A stretch of DNA of 64,000 bases from assembly GCF_014132355.1 (NCBI RefSeq), contig NZ_BLZO01000072.1:1-64000 (forward strand), written 5' to 3'. A program made the translations under genes and the position numbers. The notes beneath the pieces are model-generated. The model was not told the DNA's origin. It saw nothing but the letters and a program-made list of their open reading frames with translations, and did not search any database. This DNA is from Okeania sp. KiyG1. GTDB taxonomy: Bacteria; Cyanobacteriota; Cyanobacteriia; Cyanobacteriales; Microcoleaceae. Each line of letters begins with the position of its first letter. The stretch's first letter is position 1. Below, piece by piece: positions 31,931-34,598 of the stretch.

Positions 31931-34598
31931 TTAGTGGGCACAACCATTGTTAAACTAAGCCAGTTTGTTACCAAACCGACTCGTCTTCAGAACCGGACAT
32001 GAGACTTTCACCTCATCCGGCTCCTCTCTTGAATGCCCTTTGTCATAGGCACATCCCTTCCTTAGTGCCAGCATATCGTCAACCCATAAATAACCTTCAG
32101 GTAAATCCTGTGACTTTGGCGCATGAATATGTCTTTTTATCTAAGGCAGTTTTAGTCTCGTGGCAGTGTCGGTGCAACAGTTGTTTATTCTTATATGTGT
32201 TGTCACCACCTTCAGACCTTGGTTTTATATGGTCAACTTCCATAAGGTCAGTTGGTCTAAAAGTTAGTCCACAAGATGCACATTTATTCTTCTGCTGTTT
32301 TAACAGCGTTGTGACTTCTTTCCTTACGCCTGGATATTTACCGATTCTATTGCCCCAATAAGTCCACTTGCCGTCATAGGGTGATGCAGTACTTTTCACT
32401 TTGGTGTGCCTTGTAATAGGTACATCTGTGTGTAGGTTCAGTACATATTCGCCATCGTTAAGTGTCCAATTTCTGGTTTTCTTAATTTTGGGGAAATATT
32501 TTTCTTTGACCCAACTGGCAGGCTTATTTGGATGCCTTCTACTCACCCATCTCCATAATCTTTTCCATAAGAGCATATCCAGTTTAGTGAATATCTCTCT
32601 ACTGACTACGGTTGAAAAGTAGTTAGCCCATCCCCTTATTATCGGATTTAATTTGGCTATTAGTGCCTTTGTTGGTGCAGTTTTATGAGTATCACATATT
32701 TCTGCCAGTTTCCGATAATGGGTTTTAATACTCTTGGAGGATGGCTTGATTAGTGTTTTGAAACCTTGTTTAGTTGACTTTACCTTGTATTGCCTGATGT
32801 TGAATCCTAGAAAGTCAAATCCGGTCTTAGTTCCTTCATATTTCTCTAGGGTGTGGGCAATTCTAGTTTTTTCTGGTTTTAGTTCTAATCCTATTTGGTT
32901 TAACCATTCCTGTATTACGGTCTTTGCTTGCAGGACTACTTTGATGTCTTCATGTAGGATTACAAAGTCATCTGCATAACGTATTATAGATAGGCTTTGA
33001 CATTTGTATATTTTTGCCATACTTTTTCCATTGAGATATCTCAACGGAAGTTCTTCAGCAAATTTCATTAGCCTTTCTTCCATACCGTGTAGGGCGATGT
33101 TTGCTAGCAGGGGTGATATGACCCCTCCCTGTGGTGTACCTTCCACAGTTTCTAGGAATTGATTGTTGTCAAATACTCCGGACTTCAACCATTGTTTGAT
33201 TAATTGCCTGTATGGAGATATTCCAATTTTCCCTAGTAGTGCATCATGGTTAATTTGATCAAAACATTTGGATATGTCAGCATCTAGCACATATTTTGGT
33301 TTACGGTTGATGCTGCTAAAGATAGCTTCGATGGCATCATGTGCTGACCTCCGGAAAAGACCATAGCTATTAGGTTCAAAACGTGCTTCCCACTCTGGTT
33401 CCATACCTAACTTGACCAGGGTTTGTAACGCTCTGTCGTACATTGTGGGAATGCCTAGAGGACGTTTCTCATCTTTTCCTGGTTTTGGTATCCAGACTCT
33501 GCGGGTTGGGCTTGCTTTGAGAGGGCGTGTTCTTAGTATGTCAACCAAGTTAAGTCTTTGTATGGGTGTCAGGTTTTTGATTCCATCTACCCCGGCGGTC
33601 TTCTTACCCTGGTTGTCTTGTGTTACGCGCCTAACAGCTAGCAACCTTGCGTAGTAACTTTTTGTCAGAAGTCTTTGATATTTGCGCATCTTGCGGAGTT
33701 CGCCACGACTGGATGCTTTGTAAATCAATTTTTGTAGTTTGAATACATATTTTTCTACCTTCTTCCAATCTATGTCCTTCCACTTGAGTGTTGGGTTAAT
33801 AGATGCTTGTGAGGGTATATCGTATGTATCCCATACCACACTTGAGAATGGTTTAGGAGACCCTAATTTATTCTTTAGTATCTTGGCTTTATTCATTACT
33901 AATCATTGCTTTACACTACATTCAACAGTGGACACGTCTGCATTTTGTGCTTTTTGTCCAATCCTACTCTTCCTTTGACCTGCAACTTTTGTGCAGATTG
34001 ACCTTGAATGGCTTCCTAAGTTCTCGACCTATATTCTTAGGTGTCAAAGAGAGGTTTCCTCGTTCCCTTATACCTTTATGACGACTGACTTAGTGGGGCA
34101 AAATCTCCCGGAGGGTTCAGCATGGTTGTTAATAATTCCCCAAGGAATGGAACTTTCATTGACCCTCTGACTTTCGTCCTACATTCCATAGCTACCTTTG
34201 GAATGGTTTGATTTAACGAGAGTTTAATTGCCTTTCTGTTCGTCCACATATCAGTCTCTGCTAGCGGTATCGTTCCTGGTAACTGGTATTGTTCCGCATT
34301 TAGACCAGCTTCACGGATTGATGTTCAGTCTCTACCGTGTGGCCTACACTGTCAACCCAACAACAAGGCGGTAGGAATCTCACCTACAAGGCTATAAGAG
34401 TTTTTCAAACCGGAATTGTTCATTCCATGTATTTGGCTTGAAAGGCTTGCTATACCTACCTTACGGCGGTTTTTACTAGCCAACGAGTCGCACTCCATGA
34501 TAATCATCAGTATCATAAAATCCATTCTTAGTGCCAAAGAATAGACAACCAACAGTAAACAACACAGTTAATCCAATTAAAATTAATTTGATATCCAT
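31931..34598 (-). CDS. Small single-span membrane protein (40 residues) split by a group II intron
   Basis: Exon 1 is 34598-34494 (35 codons, MDIKLILIGLTVLFTVGCLF then FGTKNGFYDTDDYHG) and exon 2 is 31948-31931 (NGCAH and stop). Together they give a 40-residue protein with one transmembrane helix and a polar tail. A good AAAGGAG site precedes the ATG. The tail pattern NGFYDTDDYHGNG is, as I recall, that of small conserved cyanobacterial membrane proteins, possibly an NDH-1 subunit such as NdhP, but I cannot confirm this. Expression requires RNA splicing of the intron at 31949-34493. The start is 18 bp from the divergent glycosylase start at 34617. Confidence 0.75.
31990..32023 (-). ncRNA. Group II intron domain V
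   Basis: On the minus strand this reads GAGCCGGATGAGGTGAAAGT then CTCATGTCCGGTTC: a 34-nt hairpin with GAAA loop and the conserved bulged stem of the catalytic core. It confirms that the element is a ribozyme and fixes the intron orientation. Confidence 0.9.
32097..33896 (-). CDS. ltrA: Group II intron reverse transcriptase/maturase with HNH endonuclease
   Basis: A 599-residue intron-encoded protein. The reverse transcriptase core has GVDGIKNLTPIQRL, RRVWIPKPGKDEKRPLGIPT, FEPNSYGLFRRSAHDAIEAI, GTPQGGVISPLLANIALHG and the catalytic IRYADDFVILHED. The maturase (X) domain follows (TRIAHTLEKYEGTKTGFDFL; WANYFSTVVSREIF), and the C-terminus has an HNH nuclease with zinc cysteines (CASCGLTFRPTDLMEVDHIK ... 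LLHRHCHETK). All catalytic residues are present and there is no frameshift, so the intron may be active in splicing and retrohoming. Confidence 0.95.
   Translation of the reverse strand: MNKAKILKNKLGSPKPFSSVVWDTYDIPSQASINPTLKWKDIDWKKVEKYVFKLQKLIYKASSRGELRKMRKYQRLLTKSYYARLLAVRRVTQDNQGKKTAGVDGIKNLTPIQRLNLVDILRTRPLKASPTRRVWIPKPGKDEKRPLGIPTMYDRALQTLVKLGMEPEWEARFEPNSYGLFRRSAHDAIEAIFSSINRKPKYVLDADISKCFDQINHDALLGKIGISPYRQLIKQWLKSGVFDNNQFLETVEGTPQGGVISPLLANIALHGMEERLMKFAEELPLRYLNGKSMAKIYKCQSLSIIRYADDFVILHEDIKVVLQAKTVIQEWLNQIGLELKPEKTRIAHTLEKYEGTKTGFDFLGFNIRQYKVKSTKQGFKTLIKPSSKSIKTHYRKLAEICDTHKTAPTKALIAKLNPIIRGWANYFSTVVSREIFTKLDMLLWKRLWRWVSRRHPNKPASWVKEKYFPKIKKTRNWTLNDGEYVLNLHTDVPITRHTKVKSTASPYDGKWTYWGNRIGKYPGVRKEVTTLLKQQKNKCASCGLTFRPTDLMEVDHIKPRSEGGDNTYKNKQLLHRHCHETKTALDKKTYSCAKVTGFT

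Follow-up and report, generated by a model that had tools for sequence, protein, structure and literature searches.

The ndhP locus and its intron

The window analysed here is a 64,000 nucleotide stretch of Okeania sp. KiyG1 DNA (contig NZ_BLZO01000072.1), and on its minus strand lies a gene of 40 codons that a group II intron enters between codons 35 and 36, with five codons left before the gene ends (Table 1). The intron starts with GTGCGACT and terminates in AGTTTAAC, and its ends (GTGCG...AC) agree with the group II rule of 5' GUGYG and 3' AY. The terminal 77 nt match the Rfam model Intron_gpII (RF00029) at 58.2 bits and a part of the same segment matches RF04357, the plastid ndhA-ndhB domain V model, at 65.9 bits, each above its gathering score; the domain V/VI region folds as two hairpins with a z of −5.9. 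The intron encoded protein (IEP) is intact, with the RVT_N, RVT_1, GIIM and HNH domains of Pfam and the YADD motif, and scores 338 bits with the NCBIfam group II reverse transcriptase/maturase model TIGR04416 (cut-off 300). Comparison with the sister copies C28, C71 and C61 of the same genome gives a dN/dS of 0.14-0.15, these three having an open reading frame long enough for the filter and the other eight copies scanned having shorter ones. Domain V/VI, the end motifs, the pairing with the exon and the reverse transcriptase/maturase all mark the element as a group II intron, and the initial annotation, which had an intron with intact maturase splitting a 40-codon gene five codons before its end, was exact in its coordinates.

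Table 1. Features of the split ndhP gene and its intron, in window positions
Feature	Position	Strand	Remarks
ndhP exon 1	34598-34494	-	105 nt, codons 1-35; joined protein matches NdhP, the sole NdhP match in the genome
ndhP exon 2	31948-31931	-	codons 36-40 (NGCAH) and stop; joined CDS equals the intron-free ndhP of congener G326
Group II intron	34493-31949	-	2545 nt; end motifs, Rfam match and flank alignments
First 18 nt of intron	34493-34476	-	GTGCGACTCGTTGGCTAG; frame-0 stop ending the unspliced product
EBS2	34208-34214	-	AAAUCA (intron nt 280-285) or AAUCAA (281-286); 5/6 with IBS2 at either offset
EBS1	34141-34146	-	UCCUUG, intron nt 348-353; pairs 5/6 with IBS1 CAUGGA at 34499-34494
IEP (reverse transcriptase/maturase/HNH)	32097-33896	-	599 aa; Pfam, TIGR04416, dN/dS
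Domains V and VI of ribozyme	31949-32025	-	RF00029, RF04357, fold z
Possible terminator of ndhP transcript	31869-31838	-	hairpin scan alone, near shuffled rate

The ribosome-binding site of ndhP is intact (AAGGAG, its last base 9 nt upstream of the ATG), as the initial annotation had it. Two terminator-like hairpins lie downstream of the stop codon, the longer having 12 pairs, and these speak only weakly for the normal terminator once proposed there because the hairpin scan gives 3 sites against 2.2 in shuffles. A promoter scan of the locus is uninformative, with 7 sites against 8.8 in shuffles. Between 31400 and 31660 of the window, downstream of ndhP, imperfect repeats lie about 145 nt apart with, by eye, CCCCCTAG...GGGGG-like ends.

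As an observation on the IEP in other copies, five sister copies of this genome (L082, L085, L087, L048 and L049) have a common disruption of the YADD motif, TATGAGTC as against TATGCTGATGA elsewhere, and differ from one another in the rest of their sequence, the window copy being intact. The disruption occurs in 0/78 loci of other genomes, of which 37 have the intact motif by exact pattern, and it is either a shared inactivation or an assembly artefact.

The host gene and its conservation

Residues 2-40 of the joined protein align to residues 6-44 of the NdhP chain 6khi_P among PDB sequences (E=8.8e-15), the match to NdhP chain 6hum_P has E=4.1e-14, and both alignments reach the final residue of the chain. 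Judged by these PDB sequence matches the split gene is ndhP, encoding subunit P of NDH-1L, and the identity as an NDH-1 small subunit suggested in the initial annotation was right. NCBIfam gives no match to the 40-residue protein and Pfam nothing above cut-off; its sole match below cut-off, SPC25, at 14.2 bits where 24.3 are needed, is taken as chance. NDH-1L requires NdhP in Thermosynechococcus elongatus, as stated in PMC4131877, and PMC6992706 locates NdhP beside NdhD in the distal membrane arm of the complex. The split gene is the one copy of ndhP found, a search at E up to 10 returning no second copy from an assembly that is 92.36% complete.

Removing 31949-34493 joins 35 and five codons, as had been proposed, into a reading frame identical at 123/123 bases to the uninterrupted ndhP of congener G326 (locus L010). 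The gene is unsplit and of the same length in 5/5 congeners examined, and the alignments of the joined flanks cross the junction unbroken in all five; around ndhP the three longest pieces aligned between G326 and the window are 89-96% identical and the shorter ones 81% upward. More widely, NdhP homologues, for which the initial annotation had asked, are detected at E<=0.1 in 382 of the 389 genomes sampled from the order, among which at least G308 and G347 are doubtful. Within the family 58 of 62 genomes give good matches, 57 over residues 1-40 and the window's own alone over 1-35, while two give no match and two (G347, G308) a weak one. In G308, of the sister genus and 99% complete in 1510 contigs, the best match covers residues 8-29 (E=0.068), and its missing convincing ndhP is a gap, a loss or another interruption. 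The tail encoded by exon 2 is NG[CS]AH in 29/29 relatives where the gene was recovered by pattern (NGSAH 21, NGCAH 8; 30 were fetched and L026 was missed).

The empty sites of the five congeners would fit an insertion of the intron, with precise loss also conceivable. No full-length donor more than 82% identical to the ndhP intron was found in this genome's assembly, and the nearest partial copy is 84% identical over 914 query bases. Measured against G326 by the identity of the exons, the insertion seems a recent one, and therefore an intact exon 2 says little by itself on selection for splicing.

Fit of the exon-binding sequences

Recognition of the exon 1 end is probably accounted for by EBS1, which in the ndhP copy has one mismatch to IBS1, and by EBS2 at either of two offsets. 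Over the ten copies that could be aligned (C84 and C24 being too divergent) EBS1 and IBS1 form 51 of 60 pairs, a score reached by 0/1000 shuffles with a shuffle maximum of 50, and for EBS2 the score is reached by 10/1000 and 0/1000 shuffles at the two offsets. When all 12 copies are used and slip is disallowed the EBS1 region is again the top column, scoring 56 where the runner-up scores 43. Five or six of six positions pair in each of the eight sense copies, and three and four in the two antisense copies, for which splicing is not required, an ordering with a chance of 1 in 45 by plain counting. Whether the introns picked sites that suited them or were adapted to their sites later, on both accounts the pairing works.

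Related introns in this and other genomes

At least 44 domain V/VI matches occur in the genome, at least 39 of them over the Rfam family cut-off, these being lower bounds with 150 of 531 first-look candidates scored. Fifteen matches, that of the ndhP intron included, have the common 3' end GCTTAGTTTAAC, and for 12 of these both ends were found. Ten of the 12 are in sense orientation within a reading frame that is restored on removal (phase 0 in 7/10) and two lie antisense inside long frames, C61 in one of 599 aa and C88 in one of 218 aa, which inspection by eye suggests to be an NB-ARC-type ATPase and a dynamin-type GTPase respectively. That introns in bacterial coding genes are usually selected against, as the initial annotation put it, holds for bacteria in general according to PMC4424553, which has their group II introns mostly outside housekeeping genes, but in this genome ten of the 12 two-ended copies of the family sit in sense in rejoining frames. 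Beside NdhP there are nine sense hosts, and Pfam names seven, Rib_5-P_isom_A (RpiA), AhpC-TSA, Aconitase_C, His_Phos_1, HIT, DUF2288 and OrfB_IS605, the two hosts without a Pfam match including that of C24. The Aconitase_C host is presumably LeuD.

The search for second copies and empty sites covered two of these nine hosts, rpiA and leuD. The rpiA gene is found in this genome solely as two pieces, 1-113 and 112-237, split mid-gene and with no intact copy found. Matches to rpiA break at the same residue in two congeners and two sister-genus genomes (G297, G314, G285 and G308; in G308 the pieces are on two contigs, and in G297 the second match continues to residue 93 through a stop), and the gene is whole in three other congeners (G326, G250 and G305). 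At their rpiA loci two congeners and one genome of the sister genus match, without a difference across 3.4 kb, records named Okeania sp. SIO3B5, SIO2C9 and SIO3I5, which places the window in the group known as Okeania at NCBI. The leuD gene is in two pieces in this genome alone and whole in 7/7 relatives. C24 (L090) is 2285 nt long, with domain V/VI at contig positions 67937-68013, and aligns with the ndhP intron in short pieces alone; it lies nine codons before the end of an orthologue of Tery_4732, which is precisely where the Trichodesmium gene has its host intron.

Two further arrangements were seen among the group II introns of this genome. At 900-1000 of L060 (G000:C47) one intron 3' end is followed by a single base and then by another 5' end (A|GTGCGACTCGTTAGG), and this is a nested or a tandem pair of introns near a contig end. 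Loci L069-L073 (G000 C31, C60, C109, C142 and C171) carry another group II intron in copies about 89-95% alike, each followed by AACCACGGCA, and represent one repeated target hit in five places.

A maturase scan of other genomes found 140 relatives, and the best 80 of the 140 were kept; they make up 78 loci, and 63 of these come from records named Okeania, Trichodesmium or Hydrocoleum. The introns of Okeania and of Trichodesmium are closely similar. In 49 of the 78 loci both ends could be located, and the remaining 29 were excluded because they ran into a contig end or had divergent end motifs. At 42 distinct survey sites a sense frame of at least 80 aa crosses the junction in 31 and an antisense frame in three, and at 150 aa these become 28 and 0. 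Hosts named by eye include HisH, DnaG, RecF, ThyX, DnaN, nucleoside diphosphate kinase and ribosomal protein S2. In L099 (Okeania sp. SIO3I5, junction 2903/5450) an intron of the family splits a Complex1_30kDa gene, which we take to be ndhJ, with a single codon left before the stop codon; this would make it a second gene for an NDH-1 subunit that is interrupted at its far 3' end.

Probable splicing and the alternatives to it

The unspliced ndhP frame is also exactly 40 codons long, because the intron opens with five sense codons (V R L V G) and a TAG stop, and unspliced RNA is thus predicted to yield the 35 native residues followed by VRLVG. Since such a product keeps 35/40 native residues, partial function may be possible with no splicing at all, and the claim that the gene stays functional only if splicing works is best kept as likely and not as strict.

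Very probably a putatively mobile, maturase-encoding group II intron sits in sense in the single-copy ndhP and is excised from the pre-mRNA to give the normal 40-residue NdhP. Having inserted in sense, it would fold within the pre-mRNA and keep the end of exon 1 in place through EBS1 and EBS2, its own maturase or that of a sister copy may assist, and excision would join the 35 and five codons into the normal protein; where splicing failed, translation would stop after VRLVG and leave the native residues with a changed tail. Both the splicing of this copy and a dependence of NDH-1L upon it are inferred.

That the intron splices poorly or never, the cell using the 35 native residues with VRLVG and tolerating the change because it is near the 3' end, is unlikely. 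Such a reading draws on the unspliced frame ending at intron codon 6 and on two other members of the family near 3' ends, C24 at nine codons and the NdhJ-like L099 at one, but it sits badly with an NG[CS]AH tail kept in every recovered relative, with a sister copy that splits rpiA in the middle where no intact rpiA was found, and with exon-binding sequences that fit the ndhP site. It is much less probable again that ndhP is dying in this lineage or strain with the insertion being neutral: the exons are those of G326 base for base, the ribosome-binding site is intact and 57 of 62 family genomes have a full-length NdhP match, set against which are the absence of the insertion from 5/5 congeners and the doubtful NdhP match that is all G308 has. 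The draft state of the assembly, 198 contigs rich in intron copies, might also have allowed a repeat-derived intron to be wrongly joined into ndhP. Such a chimera is rejected as barely credible, because congeners align with the flanking DNA on either side, no other full-length copy resembles the intron closely (at most 82% identical, with the one partial copy at 84% over 914 bases), and the in silico splice yields the exact empty site.

Insertion phase and the early stop

Combining the 12 copies of this genome with 43 survey sites after removal of repeats gives 55 sites, in which sense frames were taken at 80 aa or more for the survey and by hand for the ten own copies, ndhP included. Phase 0 is found in 33 of the 42 sense insertions, and in 33/33 of these a stop stands at intron codon 6 or 7, in two sequence types (TAG at codon 6, TAA at codon 7). 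The four copies with no such stop (C24, L153, L156 and L170) all lie outside phase 0 (Fisher P = 0.02); in three of the four the 5' end motif is altered as well. The stricter count over distinct survey sites gives 25/31 in phase 0. The P values given in this section overstate the case, because the copies share ancestry, the same gene in two species accounts for some of the sites, and by eye the region looks like part of an RNA stem.

Whether the phase bias merely follows from the choice of target was considered as well. A target matrix made from the 22 non-phase-0 sites gives an expectation of 0.38-0.42 for phase 0 within coding DNA, which falls short of both 33/42 and 25/31 (25/31 against about 0.42, P = 1e-5). 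With all 55 sites in the matrix the prediction rises to 0.77-0.88, a circular figure because most sites are phase 0, and on that account a target-sequence cause keeps some plausibility. Outgroup introns (52-56% IEP identity) include some with an early frame-0 stop and some with none within 57 nt, these introns being few and their ends uncertain. Tentatively, the family may be built for life inside translated genes, with phase-0 insertion and a frame-0 stop within the first 18-21 nt ejecting the ribosome before the ribozyme core, such that hosts like ndhP would stay spliceable. The pattern is a lead and not a result. Among the matches listed for the open literature, by titles and abstract starts, nothing was on point for intron phase or stop codons in bacterial group II introns.

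Relation to known introns

The closest parallel by position is the twintron of Tery_4732 in Trichodesmium erythraeum, which PMC4649490 reports to splice in vivo by RT-PCR; the paper also gives 17 as the number of group II introns with documented in vivo splicing in that organism. Its host intron T.e.I7, like the ndhP intron, lies in a small conserved cyanobacterial gene, in that case nine codons before the end, and differs in its host gene and in carrying an inner intron (PMC4649490). The same source states that the twintron location was not found outside Trichodesmium; C24, at this site in the orthologous gene, means that an intron does occur there in Okeania, although at 2285 nt C24 seems too short for an inner intron like that of T.e.I7, to which it is likened by position alone. 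CL and ML introns were already noted in cyanobacterial housekeeping genes (PMC4424553), and the CL type described there and in PMC8919778 resembles the ndhP intron in its reverse transcriptase/maturase and housekeeping hosts, a likeness of kind and not a class placement. With such introns known and with splicing reported for Tery_4732, the ndhP case belongs to a known kind; no cyanobacterial group II intron with ndhP as its host was found in the open literature searched.

Two other comparisons concern position and host. The groEL gene of Azotobacter has an intron in its stop codon, and by description this resembles the ndhP intron in interrupting an important gene of a bacterium at its very 3' end, the host being another. 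Plastid group II introns are old and mostly lack an IEP. Those of chloroplast ndhA and ndhB resemble the ndhP intron in the domain V that RF04357 recognises and in interrupting NDH genes in sense. They differ from the ndhP intron, whose IEP is complete and whose site is empty in congeners, and a shared descent of the insertion does not follow from the domain V match. With empty sites in close relatives, a single genus allows a direct comparison of how a selfish retroelement turns into an obligatory intron of a gene, a transition known mainly from organelles. A maturase-bearing intron in a gene of a photosynthetic complex, with sisters in rpiA and leuD, makes a pattern that is more chloroplast-like than bacterial.
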